DNA of 64,000 nt from NCBI GenBank assembly GCA_021818715.1, contig JAKATN010000001.1:1-64000 (forward strand), written 5' to 3'. Numbering within the stretch: the first letter of the stretch is position 1; every line of letters starts with the position of its first letter. Source of the stretch: Thermoplasmata archaeon (GTDB lineage Archaea > Thermoplasmatota > Thermoplasmata > Thermoplasmatales > Thermoplasmataceae). The position numbers and the translations under genes are program-made. The notes under the pieces were generated by a model. The model was not told the DNA's origin. It made no database searches and worked only from the letters and a program-made list of their open reading frames with translations. Shown here one piece after another: positions 46 through 50,086 of the stretch.

Positions 46-119
46 GGTTCTGTCAAGTCTTGTTGATCTGATCTCCTGTAAAATTTCGGTTGATGAAAAA
101 TATTAGACTTTACAGAACC
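46..119. mobile_element. 74-bp relic or mini-element with ends like the adjacent transposon
   Basis: Bases 46-90 match the left terminal repeat of the element at 128 apart from two missing bases. Bases 105-119 (AGACTTTACAGAACC) match the outer 15 bases of that element's right end with one change. The piece therefore has two inward-facing ends and almost nothing between them. No target duplication is visible around 46-119 itself. It could be an internally deleted copy or debris of an earlier insertion. Its outer end stops exactly where the 8-bp target duplication of the large element begins. Confidence 0.55.
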
Positions 120-127
120 ACTCTTGG
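120..127. repeat. target site duplication, left copy
   Basis: ACTCTTGG abuts the left terminal repeat and is repeated exactly at 5368-5375 outside the right terminal repeat. Its eight-base length is the usual product of IS6-type transposition. Confidence 0.8.
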
Positions 128-174
128 GGTTCTGTCAAGTCTTAGGTTGATCTGATCTCCTGTAAAATATCGGT
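128..174 (+). repeat. left terminal inverted repeat of the transposon
   Basis: It begins GGTTCTGTCAAGTCTTAGG and ends TAAAATATCGGT. The reverse complement of 5321-5367 differs at one position (ATATCGG versus ATTTCGG). Together with bases 105-119 it forms a hairpin with 15-bp arms (one mismatch) and the target duplication as the loop. Confidence 0.9.
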
Positions 175-225
175 TGCTAAAAGACCAAACGAGGTTTTTT
201 ATATTGTCTGGAGTTACTTTATTGT

Positions 226-945
226 ATGACTTTGACAATCGTTCTCTCCGTAAATGAGGGAATGGTCTTCGCTACAGATAGTCGAGGTACTATTGGAGAT
301 CCTAGAGGTATCACAGCGCAGAATGATACCATCAAAAAACAGTTTAAGATAGATAAGCATATAGTGATACAAACTTCTGGAGCAAACGAGACCGGAGCCA
401 TATTCATAGATGAGATACAAAGATGGCGGGAGTCTTGCAAAAGTGAGCCCAGTATCACCGAGACCATGCTAAAATTGAGAGAGATTCTCAAATTAAAATA
501 TGATGATTGGTATTCTAAGATACCAGCTTTTCCTGTAAAAGACCAGCCCCAGAGACCTGCATTAAACCTTACGATAAGTGGTTATGAAAAAGTAGGAGGG
601 AAAAATGTTGAAAGAATATACTTGCTTAGTAGCCAGACAGACTTTGCACCACAACTTTTTAACACTGGAATCTGCATGACTGGCATACCACTTTATGCAA
701 TTTACCTTACACTACGTCTGTACTCTAGGGATATGCCATTAGATGGTGCAAAGGGGTTAGCTTCATATGTAATAGCGGAGACAGCTAGTCAAGATGGGAA
801 GGTAGGCGGACCGATTCAGATGATGCTGATTGAACAAAATGGTAATGTGACAGAAGTTGACGACAATGAGCTTAAGAAGATAAATACCGAGAATGAAAAC
901 GTTAACCTTAAGTTAAAAGAACTGTTTAGAAAAAAAAAGAATTGA
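226..945 (+). CDS. proteasome beta-subunit-like Ntn hydrolase carried by the transposon
   Basis: This 239-residue protein starts MTLTIVLSVNEGMVFATDSR, resembling the start of a mature proteasome beta subunit or HslV. If Met1 is removed, Thr2 would be the N-terminal nucleophile, Asp18 falls where the family's Asp17 lies, and Lys37 or Lys38 could serve as the catalytic lysine (Lys33 in the family). A glycine-rich turn around TSGANETG follows. There is no propeptide and the last 35 residues are charged. A TATA-like stretch at about 195-202 suggests a leaderless transcript starting at the ATG. It is the first gene inside the left end of the element. A role as a peptidase, or as a non-catalytic relative, is inferred from fold-like similarity only. 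It is distinct from housekeeping proteasome subunits, which show higher similarity to each other. Confidence 0.6.
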   Translation: MTLTIVLSVNEGMVFATDSRGTIGDPRGITAQNDTIKKQFKIDKHIVIQTSGANETGAIFIDEIQRWRESCKSEPSITETMLKLREILKLKYDDWYSKIPAFPVKDQPQRPALNLTISGYEKVGGKNVERIYLLSSQTDFAPQLFNTGICMTGIPLYAIYLTLRLYSRDMPLDGAKGLASYVIAETASQDGKVGGPIQMMLIEQNGNVTEVDDNELKKINTENENVNLKLKELFRKKKN

Positions 946-961
946 AAAAGAAAGGGATGAT

Positions 962-1129
962 ATGGTAATCAAAATTGAGAAAGTGAACAATGAGAAAAGA
1001 ATGAGAGAGATTTTGGAAACTTCCATCTGTTATGACAATACTGACAATATAGTCTTCAATGTTAGAATTGATGGACAGATAGTGACAAGTAACAAGGATA
1101 TCTTAAAGGCCGAATTCACTGATTCATAG
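962..1129 (+). CDS. 55-residue protein of unknown function in the transposon
   Basis: The reading frame starts MVIKIEKVNNEKRMREILE and ends at TAG 1127-1129. It follows the Ntn hydrolase-like gene by 16 bases, with AAAGGGATGAT before the ATG as a plausible ribosome site, so the two are probably cotranscribed. Its 3' end overlaps the 3' end of the transposase on the other strand by 14 bases. The product is charged and soluble with no recognisable motif. It could be a small partner of the upstream protein. The call rests on its position and ribosome site only. Confidence 0.45.
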   Translation: MVIKIEKVNNEKRMREILETSICYDNTDNIVFNVRIDGQIVTSNKDILKAEFTDS

Positions 1130-2222
1130 ATGCATTCTGAATTAGCGTCGTCCATTTATCATTCCCATTGACAACGATCCCGCATGCATCCGCAGGTGTT
1201 TTTCCTTTCAGTGCTTCATGTGGTCTCACGTAGTTATGGTATAGCTGATAGCCTTTCAGGATCGGGCTGTCTTTTGTCTTGAGTCCCCTGAACACCTTTT
1301 CTCTGTCCCTGATTTCTCCATTCATCCTTTCCATCTTGTTATTGTTTTTGTCCTCAGCAAGATGAATGTGCCTTATGTGTTTCGTAGTCTGCCTGTTTGA
1401 GTAAAATTCCTTCCTGTATGCATCATGGAAATTGGCCGCTCCATCACTTATGAAAACCGCTGGCTTCTTCCCTGTTATCCGCTTTGCTTCCTGATACATT
1501 GGTCTTACATCGGATGTACCCTTGTTGTCCGCAACCATCTGTGAAATCCAGAATCTTGTTTCATCATCCATCATGGAGAATAGGTATGTTAGATTACCAC
1601 GAACCTTGAGATATATCTCGTCGGTTCTCCATACATCGCTTACCTGTGGCGTTATCCTGTCAAGGTATTCTTCCATCAGTGACACGTATTTGCCAATCCA
1701 GTTGTATATGGTCTGGTGCGATACCTGAACGCCAAGGAGCTTCAATGCCCTCATGGTATTTCTCAGGGATTCCCCAGAAAAATACAGTTGCATTGCGGTG
1801 GTGATCGCCTTCGGGTTATGCTTCATTTTCTCAAACCCTATGTTTAGGGAAAATGTCCTGTTGCATGTTTTGCACTTGAACCTCTGAATTGCGATCTCCC
1901 TGTTTTTCCTGATTCCAGTCTTGACTATCTCAGAAGAATGGCAGAAGATACAACCTGATATACTGACAGGCTCAATGACCACATTCTTCCTGACCTCATC
2001 CCTCAAACTGAGCGAGAATTTCACGGCAAACGCATGTTTGCATGTTACTCCCCTCTCCATGTGATCGGGGCAGTTGCATTCCCATCCTTTGTCCGTCAGG
2101 ATCACAGAATATTTTCTGTCGGATGACTGAGATTTTACTTCATAACGCACACTGTTGATCCTTCTTACACCACCGCTTTCAAGGATTTGTTTCCCTTTAA
2201 TTTCTCTCGGTGTTTCAATCAT
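1116..2222 (-). CDS. IS6-like DDE transposase with N-terminal SWIM zinc finger
   Basis: This 368-residue transposase probably moves the surrounding element. A SWIM finger lies at residues 49-63 (C49-x-C51, C61-x-H63). A zinc ribbon with CxxC pairs follows at about 91-94 and 117-120, then a helix-turn-helix at about 140-180 and an IS6/IS240-type catalytic core. Candidate acidic residues are Asp201 (TDEIYLK), Asp260 (ISDGAANF) and Glu298 (NNKMERMNGE). The motif YHNYVRPHEALKGKTPA near the C terminus is typical of this core. All domains are present with no frameshift, so it looks intact. It is convergent with the 55-residue gene and divergent from a zinc-ribbon gene. IS6-type enzymes usually lack a SWIM domain; an added DNA- or protein-binding role is inferred. 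Confidence 0.88.
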   Translation of the reverse strand: MIETPREIKGKQILESGGVRRINSVRYEVKSQSSDRKYSVILTDKGWECNCPDHMERGVTCKHAFAVKFSLSLRDEVRKNVVIEPVSISGCIFCHSSEIVKTGIRKNREIAIQRFKCKTCNRTFSLNIGFEKMKHNPKAITTAMQLYFSGESLRNTMRALKLLGVQVSHQTIYNWIGKYVSLMEEYLDRITPQVSDVWRTDEIYLKVRGNLTYLFSMMDDETRFWISQMVADNKGTSDVRPMYQEAKRITGKKPAVFISDGAANFHDAYRKEFYSNRQTTKHIRHIHLAEDKNNNKMERMNGEIRDREKVFRGLKTKDSPILKGYQLYHNYVRPHEALKGKTPADACGIVVNGNDKWTTLIQNASMNQ

Positions 2223-2330
2223 TTAATTCACCTACTGATTAGTATATTAGTAATAGGTATATCGTATATTAAAGTACCGACTATTGGTATATTACCACAA
2301 AGTATATACTGCTCTTATGGATTTACATTC

Positions 2331-2462
2331 ATGGCAATCATTCAGATTAAGGGGTTTAGATGTGAAAGGTGTGGTCATGAATGGGTAAAGCGAGGTGAAG
2401 AAATGCCTAAAGTATGCCCGAAATGCAAGAGCCCTTACTGGAACACGTCTAGGAAAAAATAA
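2331..2462 (+). CDS. 43-residue zinc-ribbon protein in the transposon
   Basis: The protein MAIIQIKGFRCERCGHEW... carries two CxxC knuckles (CERC and CPKC) about 15 residues apart, a complete minimal zinc ribbon. The frame is open further upstream, but those residues look non-coding and the ATG at 2331 gives a compact domain. It ends two bases before the convergent 3' end of the restriction-modification gene. Such free-standing ribbons can bind nucleic acid or a protein partner. No specific function is visible. Confidence 0.6.
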   Translation: MAIIQIKGFRCERCGHEWVKRGEEMPKVCPKCKSPYWNTSRKK

Positions 2463-2464
2463 TC

Positions 2465-5014
2465 TTACATGGTAAATTCACCAAAGTCTTCTTTTAGCTT
2501 GCTAATTTCACCTTGAGCGGCCCATCTCTTTTCAAACAATTGTTCAATCCGACTGCTGATATTTTTTCTTTCTTCTTCCGAGTTTGATATTGGTAGTTTT
2601 AACTCCATCCACCTGTTACCGATGTTAGGCAAGGTTGTGTCAACCATAACCTTATTAAAAAGCTGTTTCTGTGTCAACTGGTGAGAGAATAGATATAACA
2701 AATAAAACGGAGTTATGTTATATTCGTTCTCTTCTTTAACAACCCTGAATACAATGCTGTGATGGTTCAGAAGAATCTCAGTATCATACCGGGAAACAAT
2801 AGCAACGCTACCTACCCTATAGCTACCCTCCTTTACAAAGACAATATCACCTACTTTTAGATTTACGCCATGCCCTTTTATCTTCTTGTATATCTCGATT
2901 GGAACCATAGCGGTCGGATTCTTATAAAGTTCCCAACTAACTATGTCTGCTGCTCTGACGTAAGGTATTTCACCTCTCCCTTTGAATTCACTTGGTGGTG
3001 CGCCATGCCCTCTGTATTTTTTGATTATTTCCTTTTCGATCAACTCTGATACTGGCACTAACGAAACGTTTTGGCTCTTAGCTTCGGCCTCTAATCTTTC
3101 TATTCGTTTTTTCCAATAATATCTAGGCACATACATATCATTTCTTATTTCTTCTGCTTTAACTGTAAATACATATTTGTTGGTGGGGTCCCTCGGGTTG
3201 TCCAACTCTTTCCTAATAATTTCTGTATCATCCCACACAACTCTTGTAAAATTCTGTCTTTCACTATCGTAGCGATAAATGACCTCCCCTCTATGATTGT
3301 GACCCATTTCTTCGGCCACTCCAAAGACTATTTCTTGTTGTTGAGCCATTCCCTTTTCATAGACCATTAAAATAGTCTTAGCATTATTGTGTGGTCTAAA
3401 TGTATTGTGTGGTAAATCAATAATAGCCCTAATATTGCCCCTTTCCTTTATGTAGTTTAAAACATACCTGACTTTCGGAGCATGAAAATAAGTTTCTGGA
3501 AGTACAATAGCTAGTATTCCCTTGTCATCCAGCATCTGTAAGCACCGTTCCACAAATAATGTTTGAGGTTCAGTTGCTTTTACCTTATCTGTTCGGTTCC
3601 ATCCTGCCTCTGGTATAAATTTCCACACATGCCCCAAATCAAAATGTTTTGCCTCTTCTTTTAATACTTTAATTTTTGACCCAAAAGGTGGATTTGTTAG
3701 AATAACATTGAATCTCTTGAAAGCATTATCATTCTGGACGAAAATTTCCTTTGGTTTTGGATCAAAATCTTTTGGTTCATGTAACGTGTTTTGAGCCACG
3801 ATACCACCACGTCCATCGCCTACAATGGCCATGTATGCCTTTGAAATCTTAACCAAATCTGGTTCTTTATCAATCCCGAAAAATGTTTTTTCCGCTATCT
3901 CTTTTTTTAATTTATCTAAGTTGGGGCTGCCACGATACTTTTTATCATCTTCCATCTGTTTCCAAATGTGCTCAAGAGAATAAATAAGAAACCCCCCACT
4001 GCCACATGCAGGGTCAAGTATTTTCTGTCCTGGCTTGGGATCGACTAACTTTACCGCCGTTTTAACGATTTCCCTAGGCGTGAAAAATTCCCCTTTTTCA
4101 CCTACCAATTTTGATTCTGCAAATATTTCAAAAGCGTCTCCCACAACATCTTTATCAGTCTTATGTAGGCCATATCTTTCAAGTTCTCCGACTACTATAG
4201 CAATGGACCTATCTTCTAATTTAATTTCATCATTCTTATCAAAAACCCCGTCTTCAGAAAGCTCGGCTTTCACATCCTCAAATAATTGCTTTATATTTTT
4301 TGCGACTTCTTCAGGTGATTCCGCAAAACCGATTTTGAATTTTGGTGGCTTATCCTGAAAATATCTTTCGTCCCATATTTTACAGAAGATCAGTTTTATC
4401 ATTTCATTCCCTAGTTTTTCCCTCCTGCTAATATTGGTGTTTGCATATAATGTGTTCAATATTCGCTTGAATATTAATCTTAAGTTACTGGCAGGGATAA
4501 GCTTTTCTTTAGTTATCCTACCAATATCTTCCCATGTTTGACCTTTGCTTGGGATTTGAAACACAAAGTCTCTTCTCACTTCACCAGTTTGGGGGTCCTT
4601 GTAAAGGTATTCGATATCATCACCATTTGTCCAGACACCCCATTGAGCAGAAGACGCAGACATGTAACTTTGAAGCTGCCTTATACCATCTTCTCTATGG
4701 GGTCTCTTAGTTTCGACGATTCCTAAAATATCTTGGTTTTGATCTCTCTTATTCTTATCAGTAGTTTTGTAGATAACTATATCTGATCTATCGCTAGAGT
4801 TTTTTGGGACAGTTTTGGAACCACGTTGAATAAAAACCTCTATATCCATTTGGTCGAAATCATAGTCATAATCATCCTTCAGTATTTTTTCATAGTCCTG
4901 TCGGACAGGTTCCTCCGGCTTTCGGTAATCAACCGGTTTACCGGTTGCAATATCAAATCGATATCCTTCTTTCGGTGGAACTGCTTTACCGCTTAAGTTT
5001 GCCTGTGGAACCAT
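2465..5014 (-). CDS. one-chain restriction-modification enzyme (nuclease, N6-adenine methylase and specificity domain)
   Basis: The 849-residue protein combines the three activities of a type I system, as in type IIG/IIL enzymes. Residues about 40-160 resemble the HsdR N-terminal nuclease: Asp78 in SDIVIY, then E101-x-K103 in VETKRP, a PD-(D/E)xK arrangement. HsdM-like helical sequence follows at about 170-310. Methylase motif I is DPACGSGGF at 334-342 and motif IV is NPPF at 441-444, indicating adenine methylation. Residues from about 650 form one HsdS-like target-recognition domain (PNIGNRWMELKLPIS). No translocase helicase is present, so cleavage near the site is expected. The gene is A+T-rich and is the largest cargo of the transposon. 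Motifs for all activities are intact. The recognition site cannot be read from the sequence. Confidence 0.87.
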   Translation of the reverse strand: MVPQANLSGKAVPPKEGYRFDIATGKPVDYRKPEEPVRQDYEKILKDDYDYDFDQMDIEVFIQRGSKTVPKNSSDRSDIVIYKTTDKNKRDQNQDILGIVETKRPHREDGIRQLQSYMSASSAQWGVWTNGDDIEYLYKDPQTGEVRRDFVFQIPSKGQTWEDIGRITKEKLIPASNLRLIFKRILNTLYANTNISRREKLGNEMIKLIFCKIWDERYFQDKPPKFKIGFAESPEEVAKNIKQLFEDVKAELSEDGVFDKNDEIKLEDRSIAIVVGELERYGLHKTDKDVVGDAFEIFAESKLVGEKGEFFTPREIVKTAVKLVDPKPGQKILDPACGSGGFLIYSLEHIWKQMEDDKKYRGSPNLDKLKKEIAEKTFFGIDKEPDLVKISKAYMAIVGDGRGGIVAQNTLHEPKDFDPKPKEIFVQNDNAFKRFNVILTNPPFGSKIKVLKEEAKHFDLGHVWKFIPEAGWNRTDKVKATEPQTLFVERCLQMLDDKGILAIVLPETYFHAPKVRYVLNYIKERGNIRAIIDLPHNTFRPHNNAKTILMVYEKGMAQQQEIVFGVAEEMGHNHRGEVIYRYDSERQNFTRVVWDDTEIIRKELDNPRDPTNKYVFTVKAEEIRNDMYVPRYYWKKRIERLEAEAKSQNVSLVPVSELIEKEIIKKYRGHGAPPSEFKGRGEIPYVRAADIVSWELYKNPTAMVPIEIYKKIKGHGVNLKVGDIVFVKEGSYRVGSVAIVSRYDTEILLNHHSIVFRVVKEENEYNITPFYLLYLFSHQLTQKQLFNKVMVDTTLPNIGNRWMELKLPISNSEEERKNISSRIEQLFEKRWAAQGEISKLKEDFGEFTM

Positions 5015-5099
5015 ATTATTACATATCTATATCTTATTTCAAATTTTGCTAAATTAAATAAAGTTATTGGAATTTTAATATGCTCCCACAAGACCGATG

Positions 5100-5273
5100 C
5101 TATCTTGGAATCGTAAACTTTGTTGCCCCATCAGAAGTATAAACATTAAATTTCTCCTGGCAATGACGGCACCTGAACCTTATCACGACATATGATCGGA
5201 ACATCCATTCATTGAGGAGTTCCATTTCTGATTCGTTTTTGCAACTAGGGCAAAAATGTTTAACTATCTTCAT
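5100..5273 (-). CDS. 57-residue zinc-binding protein near the right end of the transposon
   Basis: The protein MKIVKHFCPSCKNESEMEL... has two cysteine pairs (CPSC and CRHC) spaced as in a treble-clef or zinc-ribbon domain. The ATG at 5273 is chosen because GGTGAG lies just upstream on this strand; the longer open frame to 5315 adds a poorly conserved-looking stretch. It is the last gene before the right terminal repeat and lies upstream of the restriction-modification gene in the same direction, about 85 bases away. It could be a small regulator of that gene, but nothing in the sequence proves this. Confidence 0.55.
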   Translation of the reverse strand: MKIVKHFCPSCKNESEMELLNEWMFRSYVVIRFRCRHCQEKFNVYTSDGATKFTIPR

Positions 5274-5320
5274 ACGACAACTCACCATTGAGATGTATAT
5301 TATATTAACTACCAAGAACT

Positions 5321-5367
5321 ACCGAAATTTTACAGGAGATCAGATCAACCTAAGACTTGACAGAACC
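5321..5367 (-). repeat. right terminal inverted repeat of the transposon
   Basis: This is the inverted copy of 128-174 with a single mismatch. It is followed immediately by ACTCTTGG (5368-5375), the second copy of the target duplication, and then by the thermosome TATA box. Confidence 0.9.
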
Positions 5368-5375
5368 ACTCTTGG
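5368..5375. repeat. target site duplication, right copy
   Basis: ACTCTTGG is identical to 120-127. It lies six bases before the TATA-like box of the thermosome gene, so the transposon landed at the upstream edge of that promoter. Confidence 0.8.
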
Positions 5376-5381
5376 CAACAC

Positions 5382-5389
5382 TTATATAG
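5382..5389 (+). promoter_or_regulatory. TATA box of the thermosome gene
   Basis: TTATATAG lies about 28 bases before the ATG at 5417, which fits a start site within a few bases of the start codon. The transposon's target duplication ends six bases upstream, so the original sequence beyond the BRE has been displaced by 5.2 kb. Confidence 0.6.
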
Positions 5390-5416: not shown

Positions 5417-7051
5417 ATGCTAGGAGGACAGCCAGTTTTCATATTAAAAGAAGGAACTAAGAGGGAGTCAGGCAAGGATGCCATGCAGAACAACATTGAA
5501 GCGGCCAAGGCAATTTCAACCTCTGTCAGATCCACCCTCGGTCCGAGGGGAATGGACAAGATGCTTGTTGATTCACTCGGGGACATTGTCATAACCAATG
5601 ATGGAGTTACAATCCTGAAAGAGATGGACGTTGAACATCCGGCTGCAAAGATGATGGTCGAGGTATCCAAGACTCAGGACAGTTTCGTAGGCGATGGAAC
5701 GACCACTGCTGTTATAGTCGCTGGTGCTTTGCTTTCAGAGGCAGAAGGGCTGATAAAGCAAAATGTCCACCCAACCGTGATCTCGGAAGGCTACAGGATG
5801 GCATCGGCCCAGGCAAAGAAGATTCTCCACGATATGTCAAAGCCTGTCAAGATCGATGACAAGCCCCTTCTTACAAAAATGGCTGAAACTGCACTGAGCA
5901 GCAAGAGTGCATCAGGCAGCAAGACCAAGCTCGCCGAAATCTCGTATGAGGTTGTAAAGAGCGTTGCCGAAAAGGTGGAAAACAAATATACAGTTGATTT
6001 TGACAACATCCAGTTAGTGAAGAAGAAAGGCGGAGAAATCGACGACACGGAATTGATTTACGGCATCATAGTGGACAAGGAGAAGGTCCACCCCGGAATG
6101 CCGGACTTTGTGCATGGAGCCAAGATTGCTCTTTTGAATGCCGCGCTGGAGATCAAGAAACCCGAGTTTGACACAAACATAAGGATCGACGATCCCTCCA
6201 TGATACAGAAATTCCTCCAGCAGGAAGAATCCATGCTCAGGGAAATGGTCAGGAAGATAAAGGCAACCGGCGCAAACGTCCTCATAACACAGAAGGGTAT
6301 AGACGACCTGGCGCAGCACTTCCTCTCCAAGGAAGGCATATATGCAGTAAGGAGGGTAAAGAAGAGCGATGTGGAGAAGCTCGCCAAGGCAACGGGTGCC
6401 TCAATTGCAAGTTCTATCGATGAACTGACATCCTCCGATCTTGGATCAGCTGAGAATGTGGAGCAGAAGAAGATAGACGAAGACTACATGACTTTTGTAA
6501 CGGGCTGCAAGAATCCCAAGGCTCTGAGCGTTCTGATAAGGGGCGGGACGGAGCATGTGGTGGACGAAATTGAGAGGTCGATAACAGATTCCGTCCATGT
6601 GGTTGCAGCGGCGATCGAAGACGGCAAATACACCTCAGGTGGAGGTTCCTCAGCTGCTGAGATTGCGTTCAGGCTTGGCGAATATGCAAAGAAGGTAGGC
6701 GGCCGTCAGCAGCTCGCTATAGAAAAATACGCAAACGCAATGGAAGAGATACCCAGGGCGCTTTCGGAGAACGCCGGTCTGGATCCGATCGACATCCTCA
6801 TAAAGATAAGGAGCAGGCATGCTGAGGGTCAGAAATACCACGGGATCAATGTCTATGATGGGGAAGTCCAGGACATGATCAAGGCTGGAGTGATAGAGCC
6901 GATCAGGGTCGGGGAGCAGGCCATAGAATCTGCCACAGAGGCTGCAGTCATGATACTGAGAATTGATGACGTTATCGCTACCAGAGCAGGTTCAAAAGGC
7001 CCTGGTGGTGGCGGTTCCCCGCCAGGCGGAGAAGGTTCATCCGAAGATTGA
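5417..7051 (+). CDS. ths: thermosome subunit (group II chaperonin)
   Basis: This 544-residue ATP-driven folding chaperonin matches archaeal thermosome/CCT subunits over its full length. The ATP-binding GDGTTT motif is at residues 92-97, preceded by [10 protein letters not shown] and NDGVTIL. The equatorial, intermediate and apical regions are in the usual order and the C-terminal ATPase segment includes [11 protein letters not shown]. The tail is rich in Gly, Pro and Ser ([13 protein letters not shown]) rather than the GGM repeats common in bacterial GroEL. The start follows a TATA box at leaderless spacing. A strong stem-loop covers the stop codon. The gene stands alone in its transcription unit. 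Whether it is an alpha or beta subunit cannot be decided here. Confidence 0.97.
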
Positions 7052-7076
7052 ACTCACTTTTTTTGAGTTCATCTTC
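7043..7076 (+). terminator. stem-loop at the end of the thermosome gene
   Basis: GAAGA(T)TGAACTCA pairs with TGAGTTCATCTTC around a CTTTTTT loop, a 13-bp stem with one bulged T that begins inside the coding sequence and includes the stop codon. AATTTTAAAT follows. It probably ends transcription or protects the mRNA 3' end. Confidence 0.6.
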
Positions 7077-7121
7077 AATTTTAAATCACAATTTAGTTAT
7101 ATTCATTAAATATGCGAGAGC

Positions 7122-8072
7122 GTGCAGAATACTTACGCCCAGATATACAGAAAGCAGCACTACGGAATGGTCGGCAAGCACTCCGCAGTGAAGGTGTGCC
7201 ACTGGACAAAGTCCCAGCTCACGGGAGGCGAGGGATGCTACAAGGACACATTTTATGGCATAAGTTCACACCAGTGCATACAGATGACGCCCGCTGTCAA
7301 CTCCTGTACTGAAAACTGCTCATTCTGCTGGAGATTCCAGGGATTTGACTCTATGCACATTTCCGACGAGGACGATCCCGAATTCATTCTTGAGAACTCT
7401 ATCATCCAGCACAAGAAACTGCTTTCAGGGTTCAAAGGCAACCCCAGGGTGAGCATGGAAAAATGGGAGGAGTCTCAGAACCCGAAGCACATAGCTATTT
7501 CGCTGACCGGCGAACCTACAATATATTCCAGACTCGGGGAGTTCATTGCACTTGCCACAGAGAGAGGTTTCTCAACTTTCCTGGTTACCAATGGAACCCT
7601 TCCTATGGTACTGGAGAAGCTTGATCCGCTTCCAACGCAGCTTTATGTCACAGTAGCGGGGCCCACCAGGGAGATTTTCAACGAAGTGCTAAACCCGTCA
7701 ATCGGCAATGCCTGGGAGAACTTCAACAGGACTCTGGATCTTCTTCCCTCGCTCAATACAAGAAAGGTGATCAGGCACACCCTGGTCAAGGACGTAAACA
7801 TGCCCTTCATTGATGAATATTATAAACTTGACTCCAGGGCATCGCCTGATTTTATAGAATCCAAGGGATACGTTCACGTGGGTCAATCTATGGACAGGCT
7901 TTCTGCATCTAATATGCCGCCGCACGATATGGTAGTGCAGTTCTCAAGGGAACTCGGAGAAAAACTTGGATATGAGTTCACCGCCGAAAGAAGGGAGAGC
8001 CGGGTAACGCTGCTCTGCAGGGACCCTTCAAAAGCAAGGATCGATTTCAGCAAAATAGGAAGCACTGTATAA
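7122..8072 (+). CDS. tyw1: 4-demethylwyosine synthase TYW1 (radical SAM, tRNA-Phe modification)
   Basis: TYW1 joins pyruvate carbons to N1-methylguanosine 37 of tRNA-Phe to build the tricyclic wyosine core. The 316-residue sequence shows both iron-sulfur sites of the family: Cys26, Cys39 and Cys52 in the N-terminal part, and the radical SAM triad CxxxCxxC at Cys62, Cys66 and Cys69. LTGEPTIY and FLVTNGT are conserved TYW1 segments. GTG at 7122 is the assigned start. An ATG ten bases earlier is in another frame, so the exact start is uncertain by a few residues. It is followed after 13 bases by thymidylate kinase and the two are probably cotranscribed. Confidence 0.93.
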   Translation: MQNTYAQIYRKQHYGMVGKHSAVKVCHWTKSQLTGGEGCYKDTFYGISSHQCIQMTPAVNSCTENCSFCWRFQGFDSMHISDEDDPEFILENSIIQHKKLLSGFKGNPRVSMEKWEESQNPKHIAISLTGEPTIYSRLGEFIALATERGFSTFLVTNGTLPMVLEKLDPLPTQLYVTVAGPTREIFNEVLNPSIGNAWENFNRTLDLLPSLNTRKVIRHTLVKDVNMPFIDEYYKLDSRASPDFIESKGYVHVGQSMDRLSASNMPPHDMVVQFSRELGEKLGYEFTAERRESRVTLLCRDPSKARIDFSKIGSTV

Positions 8073-8085
8073 AGAGGGAAATGAT

Positions 8086-8748
8086 CTGACCTTCATCGCA
8101 CTGGAAGGAATAGACGGGTCAGGTAAGACCACACTTTCCAGGAAGCTGCGGGCCTTCTATTCAGAGAATGGGAAGAAAGTGTACCTGACCCAGGAGCCTA
8201 CATCCTCAATGAAGGTTGACGAAAATCTTGCTGGAAGCAGGGATGCCAAATCTGCTTACGAGCTTCTTGTGAAATTCACGGAAGACAGGGTAATGCATTC
8301 CAGGATCGTGAAGGAGAAGCTCGACAACGGATATGTCGTCATTTCGGACAGGTATCTCCTGTCCAGCGCTGCATATCAGGGTGCTCTCATAAGGGACGAT
8401 TACGGTAGCACTGCGGAACTCCTCCGGTTTATACTTCTCCTGTCATCCCCCATCGAGGCATGGCCGGATATGGTATTCCTGCTCGACATAGATCCTGAAA
8501 TTTCACTGGAGAGGATCCGTGCAAGAAATGAGGTGTCTGGATTTGAGGACCTTGCTTATCTGAGGAAAGTGCGGAACCTCTATCTGGAGATTGCCAGGCT
8601 GCTCTCCGCACCCGACGGTGAAAATACAGGATTCGGAACCGGGCAAACTTTATGGAACAACCTGAAAAGAATAGAGATAGTGGATTCCTCGATCAGGAGG
8701 AAGGACCTAATTTCCAGGTGCATCAGCCTGCTTGGGCAGTCAGACTAA
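8086..8748 (+). CDS. tmk: thymidylate kinase
   Basis: The enzyme phosphorylates dTMP to dTDP. The P-loop GIDGSGKTT lies at residues 8-16 if translation starts at CTG 8086. QEPTSS, DRYLLSSAAYQG and FLLDIDPEISLERI are the substrate and lid segments of the family. The first GTG (8179) would delete the P-loop and cannot be the start. No ATG, GTG or TTG precedes the P-loop in frame after the upstream stop. GAGGG at 8074-8078 sits seven bases before CTG, so a CTG start is the best reading. That gives 220 residues, the family's normal length. The last four bases overlap the convergent methionine aminopeptidase gene. Confidence 0.9.
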   Translation: MTFIALEGIDGSGKTTLSRKLRAFYSENGKKVYLTQEPTSSMKVDENLAGSRDAKSAYELLVKFTEDRVMHSRIVKEKLDNGYVVISDRYLLSSAAYQGALIRDDYGSTAELLRFILLLSSPIEAWPDMVFLLDIDPEISLERIRARNEVSGFEDLAYLRKVRNLYLEIARLLSAPDGENTGFGTGQTLWNNLKRIEIVDSSIRRKDLISRCISLLGQSD

Positions 8749-48788: not shown

Positions 48789-50086
48789 ACCTTGAAGAGT
48801 TGCTGGAAAACAGCACGCCCACCCAGGCAGAAACGCTCCTTTATATGGAAGCCTACAGGCAGATTGTAGATGCCATCAGAACTGAAATCGACAAGTCGGG
48901 GTTAAAGGCAGAACCAGTTCTAGTGGGTTCTGTTGCAAAGGGAACCAACCTCAAGGGATCCGATCTCGATATCTTCATCGCTTTTTCAAAAGAATACACT
49001 GAAGAACAGATAGAACAGAACGGGATTAAAATTGCAAAGAAGGTGCTTCCAGGAGGGAAAGCCAGGTACGCAGAACACCCTTATATTTCTGGAGAATACC
49101 ATGGCATCAACACGGACATTGTGCCTTGCTACAATATCTCGCCAGGTGAGACCAAAATAAGCTCTGTTGACAGAACTATTCTTCACACCCGGTACGTGAA
49201 TGAAAATCTCAAGGCGTCTGCAAAGAATGAAGTTAGAAAACTGAAGCTTTTCATGAAAGTATCCGGAATTTATGGGGCGGATGTGATTACTTCAGGATTT
49301 TCAGGATACGTTTGCGAGCTCCTGATTATAATAAAGAAAACTTTTGACTCAGTGATCGAGATGGGCGCAACCCTCAGGGGAAATATGAATCTGTCGGAGT
49401 GCGTCGAGCCAAATGCAGGTGCAGGTTCTCCTGTCTGTATTGTTGATCCCACTGACAGCAGGAGAAACGCTGGAGCCGCCGTCAGCCTGGAATCACTGAC
49501 CAAATTTAAGCTGGCATGCCGGCTATACAAGGCCAGAGGATACGAGGGGCTGACGGAAAGCGTTTCAGGAGCGATTGAACATAAAGCAGAACGGGGAACA
49601 GCCTACAGGCTGATTTCCATTGACAGACCAGACAGAACAGATGACGTGTTGTATCCGCAGGCCTTAAGGCTGCTCAGGAAACTTGAAGAGGCATCAATAA
49701 AGGAAGGGTATGGAATCATCGGTGACACCATCTTTCTCAATGAAAAGAAAGTGCTGATCCTTTTGGAATTTGATCGCTCGGTTGTTCCAGAAGTGGTATT
49801 GCATGAAGGGCCGCCCGTCGACAACGGAAACGTGCTGGATTTCCTGGAAAAGTGGAAGGGGGATAGGGTGCTGCGCGGCCCTTATGTAAAGGGAAACAGG
49901 GTTTACGCTGAAATTCTAAGAGAATTCACGAAAATTGATGACTTTTTAGGCAATTTCCTTACCGGACTGGGCCTTGGGGGGAGCCTTGAGAAGATGCGAA
50001 ACTCCCTTGAAATCGTAAATCCGAGCGGAAAGGTCGAATACAATGGACTTATCGACAGCTACCTGTCCAGAGGATTGTTCCGATGA
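48785..50086 (+). CDS. cca: archaeal (class I) CCA-adding tRNA nucleotidyltransferase
   Basis: The enzyme adds or repairs the 3' CCA of tRNAs without a template. The catalytic palm has GSVAKGTNLKGSDLDIFIAF with the two-aspartate DLD pair, and a third acidic residue in GINTDIVPCY. The 433-residue length and the following KLFMKVSGIYGADVITSGFSGYVCELLI region match the archaeal type. A tRNA-Trp gene begins 98 bases downstream; its gene does not encode CCA (TACATT follows), consistent with need for this enzyme. Confidence 0.95.
   Translation: MNLEELLENSTPTQAETLLYMEAYRQIVDAIRTEIDKSGLKAEPVLVGSVAKGTNLKGSDLDIFIAFSKEYTEEQIEQNGIKIAKKVLPGGKARYAEHPYISGEYHGINTDIVPCYNISPGETKISSVDRTILHTRYVNENLKASAKNEVRKLKLFMKVSGIYGADVITSGFSGYVCELLIIIKKTFDSVIEMGATLRGNMNLSECVEPNAGAGSPVCIVDPTDSRRNAGAAVSLESLTKFKLACRLYKARGYEGLTESVSGAIEHKAERGTAYRLISIDRPDRTDDVLYPQALRLLRKLEEASIKEGYGIIGDTIFLNEKKVLILLEFDRSVVPEVVLHEGPPVDNGNVLDFLEKWKGDRVLRGPYVKGNRVYAEILREFTKIDDFLGNFLTGLGLGGSLEKMRNSLEIVNPSGKVEYNGLIDSYLSRGLFR

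Follow-up and report, generated by a model that had tools for sequence, protein, structure and literature searches.

The retrotransposons Ty3 and Tf1 of yeasts settle at promoters or immediately upstream of them through contacts with factors bound there; for Ty3 this factor is TFIIIB, which contains TBP together with Brf1, a relative of TFB. Both elements rely on retroviral-type integrases and RNA intermediates, and for both of them tethering is established, whereas we infer it for the archaeal transposons reported here. The contact between Ty3 and TFIIIB is mentioned in a paper that also describes bacterial elements inserting 15-17 bp from the -35 region of sigma-A promoters, namely TnGBS/ISLre2 (p-MULT 3) and the ISKra4 group (p-MULT 4) (PMC3942029). 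These bacterial elements share with the archaeal ones a fixed distance upstream of promoters and the existence of cargo-bearing members (PMC3942029). However, their transposase is of the Mutator type and unrelated, and the promoters concerned are sigma-A promoters instead of BRE/TATA. In addition, the orientation of insertion is fixed for TnGBS and most p-MULT 3 elements, whereas in the archaeal family the promoter may lie beside either element end (17 versus 14). The archaeal family works like the p-MULT elements without being a member of them, and TnGBS/ISLre2 of bacteria is its nearest analogue.

A second comparison concerns the IS6/IS26 family, which has archaeal members of its own and with which the elements described here share the tips GGTTCTGT and 8-bp duplications; the IS6-type DDE domain is the best match of their transposase. 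The longer clostridial IS6 members (clades h/i, that is VII/VIII) likewise have an N-terminal zinc finger (PMC7986276, PMC6807381). The differences are that the archaeal family adds a SWIM finger, that its transposase scores below the cut-off of the IS6 model, that its ends are two-box structures of about 47-60 bp as against a single repeat of 14-20 bp, and that its members measure 1.9-6.8 kb with cargo as against 0.7-1.8 kb in IS6. The statement of a preliminary description of this DNA, that IS6 elements are normally short and carry only the transposase, agrees with the literature, where the one exception, ISDsp3, is the only IS6 member on record with a passenger gene (PMC7986276). Among integrated elements of the same hosts, a thaumarchaeal survey describes IS-like transposons, typically of one or two genes, and casposons, which also occur in tandem and which, unlike the present family, use Cas1 as integrase; we found neither cargo families nor promoter targeting described there (PMC6563490). 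In the open-access papers that we searched, we found neither this family nor TATA-spaced insertion in archaea described; such an absence is no proof. This large and widespread archaeal family is apparently undescribed.

Based on our results, it is highly probable that the window (the whole stretch of DNA analysed, 64,000 nucleotides from a Thermoplasmata archaeon) carries a complete DDE transposon of this large archaeal family, with variable cargo and with landing sites chosen by archaeal promoters. The transposon occupies positions 128-5367 (5,240 bp), its outer limits being set by its inverted ends and an 8-bp duplication. Inverted-repeat comparison gives two terminal repeats of 47 nt (left, 128-174, forward strand; right, 5321-5367, reverse strand) that are complementary at 46 of 47 positions (98%), with one base differing. 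They are flanked by ACTCTTGG at 120-127 and at 5368-5375 (both on the forward strand), an 8-mer that the 64 kb contain at these two places only. The preliminary description had recognised both the long ends with their single difference and the duplication; it had drawn the element as 120-5375, and here the transposon proved real while its limits had to be moved inward, the outer 8 bp on each side being the target duplication. To the right, the BRE position begins with the final base of the duplication, and the TATA box of the target promoter, CTTATATA (5381-5388, forward strand), stands 13 nt from the transposon end. The gene served by this promoter encodes a thermosome subunit (5417-7051, forward strand, start codon at 5417) and is transcribed away from the transposon.

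The transposase (368 aa, 1116-2222, reverse strand) combines a SWIM-type zinc finger (CxC-x9-CxH), a zinc ribbon (CxxC..CxxC), an HTH region and an IS6/IS240-like DDE domain with the residues D201, D260, E298 and R305; in the family alignment, finger and ribbon alike are conserved. The Pfam model DDE_Tnp_IS240 is matched above its cut-off (47 versus 27 bits) and is present in 15 of 15 family members, and the Pfam SWIM model reaches an E value of 0.01 in 5 of the 15. The label "IS6-like" given earlier is right in that IS6 is the best NCBIfam match, and goes too far in that the score stays below the cut-off (109 versus 125 bits). Kinship with Mutator/IS256 transposases is not indicated, Pfam Transposase_mut being below its cut-off (E=0.0018) and NCBIfam IS256 reaching 31 of the required 150 bits. 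Structure prediction for the transposase was of low confidence (pLDDT 59, pTM 0.30) and led to no useful PDB match. As regards the other features of IS6 in the ISfinder sense, where replicative transposition with cointegrates is a further mark, the window element has the 8-bp duplication. The tips GGTTCTGT agree with the GG start and CTGT motif of IS6 repeats, but the long two-box ends differ from a short single repeat of 15-20 bp, and the element is larger than the 0.7-1.8 kb or so of a transposase-only one.

Divergent from the transposase lies a core partner gene for a zinc-ribbon protein of 43 aa with the motif CPKCKSPYW (2331-2462, forward strand), 42-67% identical to transposase-adjoining homologues at four other loci (L200, L239, L205 and L181). 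The cargo comprises a proteasome-like (Ntn-hydrolase) protein of 239 aa (226-945, forward strand; Pfam Proteasome, E=2.5e-5) and a single-chain restriction-modification protein of 849 aa (2465-5014, reverse strand), which joins an HSDR_N nuclease-like domain, an N6 methyltransferase and a type I specificity domain. There are also a small open reading frame of 55 aa (962-1129, forward strand) and a small zinc-ribbon ORF of 57 aa (5100-5273, reverse strand). The 849-aa protein resembles MAD2, the methyltransferase that accompanies the other mad genes in the MADS defence system; its score (345 bits) is far below the MAD2 cut-off of 720 and does not place it in that system, and PADLOC gave no match for the other two element proteins scanned. 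The proteasome-like Ntn-hydrolase of the window (226-945) has counterparts as cargo at L202 (10975-11787), L213 (7950-8759) and L219 (5321-6247).

Such an arrangement might also have arisen as a composite, with two short IS6-type elements or MITEs on either side of genes caught between them, as IS6 elements are known to form pseudo-compound transposons (PMC7986276) and a mini-element with the same ends does adjoin the transposon (46-119). A compound transposon consists of two IS copies flanking cargo, though, and here neither end holds a second transposase or IS copy, the single transposase being located away from the ends. The exact duplication flanks the outer pair of ends only, and relatives repeat the same single-transposase plan with other cargo, so that we consider a composite origin very unlikely. 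In line with the preliminary description, no private inverted repeats surround the transposase (1116-2222) inside the element, and the transposase is single in the 1.39-Mb genome. Beyond the mini-element and its contig-overlap duplicate, that genome holds no further copies of the element.

In order to delimit relatives, we used an automatic rule that is blind to promoters: GG/CC tips, at least 13 of 18 inverted matches, an exact 8-bp direct repeat outside and a transposase inside. From 162 transposase places, fragments and contig ends included, 69 passed and 65 were left after removal of duplicates, the window element among them; five more were delimited by hand, giving a set of 70. These 65 elements have ends of one kind and, element by element, an exact duplication and cargo of their own; they bear out the earlier proposal that the 5.24 kb move as a single unit. 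Transposases of the same type occur in Thermoplasmatota, Nitrososphaeria (here the class of a Nitrosopumilus genome), Methanoperedens-type archaea and Bathyarchaeota, with relatives also within the order of the window organism. They were found on 22 archaeal contigs of named genomes (Thermoplasmata, Nitrosopumilus, Nitrosocosmicus, Nitrosotalea, Methanoperedens, Bathyarchaeota and others). The type also occurs in 26 of 390 genomes from the phylum of the window organism and in 90 of 400 from Nitrososphaeria; viral contigs yielded two relatives only.

The elements have a median length of 3.2 kb (range 1.9-6.8 kb, n=70), and 68 of the 70 contain at least one extra ORF of at least 80 aa, the remaining two being without. 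The 180 cargo proteins fall into 169 clusters, and cargo is almost never common to two elements. Few cargo families recur: the commonest Pfam family among 70 cargo proteins scanned is the proteasome-like one (5 of 70), and DNA methyltransferases or restriction-modification proteins return as well. A short divergent ORF stands just upstream of the transposase in 50 of 70 elements; some of these are surely spurious, and many resemble, by eye, AbrB, ribbon-helix-helix or zinc-ribbon proteins.

The ends of these elements, some 47-60 bp long, tend to contain two copies, outer and inner, of a box that is specific to each element; at the left end of the window element, the outer box CTGTCAAGTCTTAGGTTGA lies at about 132-150 and the inner box CTGTAAAATATCGGTTGC at about 160-177 (forward strand). 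The first eight bases are GGTTCTGT at the left end of 33 of the 65 elements. In 76 of 130 ends, the inner region repeats a 6-mer from the outer box of that same end, compared with a mean of 14.5 and a maximum of 23 when ends are mismatched; this k-mer test is clear, whereas a test for ungapped copies of the outer box in the inner one is weak (10 versus 2 of 130). Judged from their sequences, such ends would fit two transposase binding sites each, and the two-box build accounts for the long repeats noted in the preliminary description.

In many elements, one end is followed on the outside by the 8-bp duplication, then 5 nt, and then a TATA box. Sites were scored with a generic archaeal TATA matrix that had been fixed in advance. 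The offset of 13 nt was first noticed on 16 elements, where it gave 8 matches and every other offset 0-1; the remaining 49 elements are an extension of this sample. Over all 65, 27 of 130 flanks gave a match at offset 13, while the other offsets averaged 0.23. At a score of at least 5, 31 of 65 elements have the TATA box at exactly 13, and random positions in the same loci gave a mean of 0.26 and a maximum of 3 (300 draws). With the radA sites left out, the peak persists (20 versus 0.33), and it is seen in Thermoplasmatota alone, with 5 matches from 8 elements. A TATA-like box is present at offsets 11-15 in 46 of 65 elements and near neither end in the other 19, so the rule is a strong preference and not an absolute one.

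The compact genomes of these archaea, in which most insertions into genes would be lost, raise the question whether insertion is random and only harmless intergenic copies upstream of genes have been retained. Purifying selection would not produce one-base precision, however, and the offsets 12, 13 and 14 gave 0, 27 and 2 matches. A null restricted to positions 20-110 nt upstream of ORF starts gave a mean of 0.40 and a maximum of 3 (300 draws) as compared to the 31 observed, and one and the same base of the radA promoter has been used in 12 genomes. Survivor bias is refuted as the sole cause, and we regard it as very improbable.

Since the TATA box is nearly palindromic, the reversed matrix also peaks at 13, and the direction of the promoter rests mainly on gene starts: the downstream genes point outward and mostly start 41-60 nt from the element. 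The consensus of the BRE is RNWAAW, and BRE-like bases stand where this would place them: among 24 distinct promoters 22 have a purine at offset 7 and 18 an A at offset 10, so that the BRE starts on the final base of the duplication. The target genes include those for thermosome subunits (the window and L104), RadA, TFB, S8e, P1 and SufB, and the same RadA gene was recognised by sequence at six further loci. At two loci it is the TATA box of a TFB gene that stands 13 nt from an element (L213, 10172-11165; L251, right flank of 5621-8689), and these two elements are in front of the gene for the very factor that we propose as their guide.

The radA promoter offers a direct comparison of empty and filled sites. 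Using the two joined flanks of the L202 stack as the query, we found this promoter uninterrupted in about 60 of 250 genomes (for example L259/L301, at 95% identity). In 12 genomes different elements interrupt it, all of them at one and the same base and in the order TATA, 5 nt, duplication, tip (L039, L054, L199, L200, L202, L228, L290, L292, L296, L299/L217, L300 and L303). The search for empty sites proposed in the preliminary description was thus answered at radA and without a clean case for the window element itself: two congeners have an element-free thermosome promoter, with unrelated upstream DNA, and conservation of the promoter starts at base 5382. The window begins at a contig end, and its positions 1-127 are identical to the last 127 bases of contig C16 (4324-4450), so that the assembly break falls exactly on the left boundary of the transposon. 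A mixed population in which some cells have an empty site would be expected to cause such a break, which we take as a hint, and no more, that part of the population carries an empty allele.

Elements also accumulate at single promoters. The tip of a neighbour follows the element end at a distance of exactly 8 nt in 12 of 130 flanks, other spacings occurring 0-1 times apart from 83 nt. Before radA, L200 (3635-12948; G552:C1) has three elements in a row and one more end, with TGTTTCGA standing between them each time, and L202 has two elements separated by TGTTTTAG. Repeated insertion at one promoter distance would leave just such elements separated by a single duplication, each newcomer copying the same 8 bp. 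The window shows the same kind of stack in the order mini-element, ACTCTTGG, transposon, ACTCTTGG, promoter. Its mini-element is MITE-like, 74 bp long (46-119, forward strand), and made of a full two-box end and, on the other side, a short one. Exactly 8 bp separate its right tip from the transposon, so that 120-127 is its right flank too. Its left flank, TAAAATAA, does not match ACTCTTGG, which means that the mini-element has lost its own duplication. Elsewhere in the genome it recurs only as the contig-overlap duplicate on C16. This adjacent mini-element, the contig end with its overlap, the family and the targeting of promoters all go beyond the preliminary description.

We propose the following course of events. 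The transposase would bind the two-box ends, and the complex would meet TFB/TBP on the BRE-TATA and cut at its upstream edge. Insertion would be staggered by 8 bp, and the near end would come to stand immediately outside the BRE, 13 bp before the TATA box. The small divergent gene would regulate the transposase, and cargo such as the restriction-modification gene would benefit the host or the element. As core promoters are left intact, an element next to a housekeeping gene is tolerated, and one promoter can receive further insertions.

The proposal that the transposase finds its position by contacting TFB/TBP (or an open promoter), and not by direct reading of the TATA box, is one to which we give even weight for and against. 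Its main rival, which touches this step only and leaves promoter targeting as it is, holds that the transposase itself reads TATA-like DNA 13 bp from the cut, with no host factor. Nearly all conservation in the targets lies in the TATA box and two BRE-like positions, which a DNA-binding domain could read, and the transposase has several DNA-binding modules. Under direct reading, however, TATA-like stretches elsewhere should be targets as well, and the scored sites mostly have a gene start 41-60 nt downstream; many targets are constitutive housekeeping genes, as would be expected for occupied promoters; and the BRE signal is what TFB reads. Taken together, these points are not decisive. We hold direct reading to be a plausible though less favoured explanation. 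Whether the family as a whole docks on promoter-bound TFB/TBP, in parallel to Ty3 and TFIIIB, and so builds stacks of cargo-carrying elements before housekeeping genes, even that of TFB, is likewise finely balanced in our judgement.

If we are right, a widespread vehicle of gene exchange now has a name in ammonia-oxidising, methane-oxidising and Thermoplasmata-type archaea, together with clear rules for finding it: two-box ends beginning with GGTTCTGT, an 8-bp duplication and 13 nt to the TATA box. The reading of archaeal promoters by a transposon would become testable, with parallels in bacterial sigma-A promoters and yeast TFIIIB. The system could possibly serve for safe-harbour insertion in archaeal genetics, and possibly as a natural marker of promoters in use. 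Finally, the varied cargo, with its 169 clusters in 180 proteins and its recurring methyltransferases and proteasome-like proteins, would be a new hunting ground for archaeal defence genes.

Some minor observations deserve mention. A canonical IS6-like end at window position 48926 (GGTTCTGTTGCAAAG) has no partner end, is probably inside coding sequence and was taken as chance. A spacing of 83 nt to a neighbouring tip was seen in 6 flanks. Two elements in Methanosarcinales-type archaea have duplications that look like 9 bp (L040, 6690-11138, GCACAAACG; L048, 7073-11891, GGTTGTGCG). A 64-bp mini-element at a radA promoter (L289; G443:C4) resembles that at 46-119 of the window and has its own duplication, TGTTTTGA; both mini-elements (64-74 bp) consist of a complete two-box end and a short opposite tip and stand at promoters. 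At L046 (4746-7780) and L052 (9060-11814), the two 8-mers flanking the element are inverted relative to one another (CGATTAAA / TTTAATCG and TTATTTAT / ATAAATAA, respectively) and each element abuts another end at 8 bp; the most likely reading of these inverted flanks is an intramolecular inversion next to an end already present.
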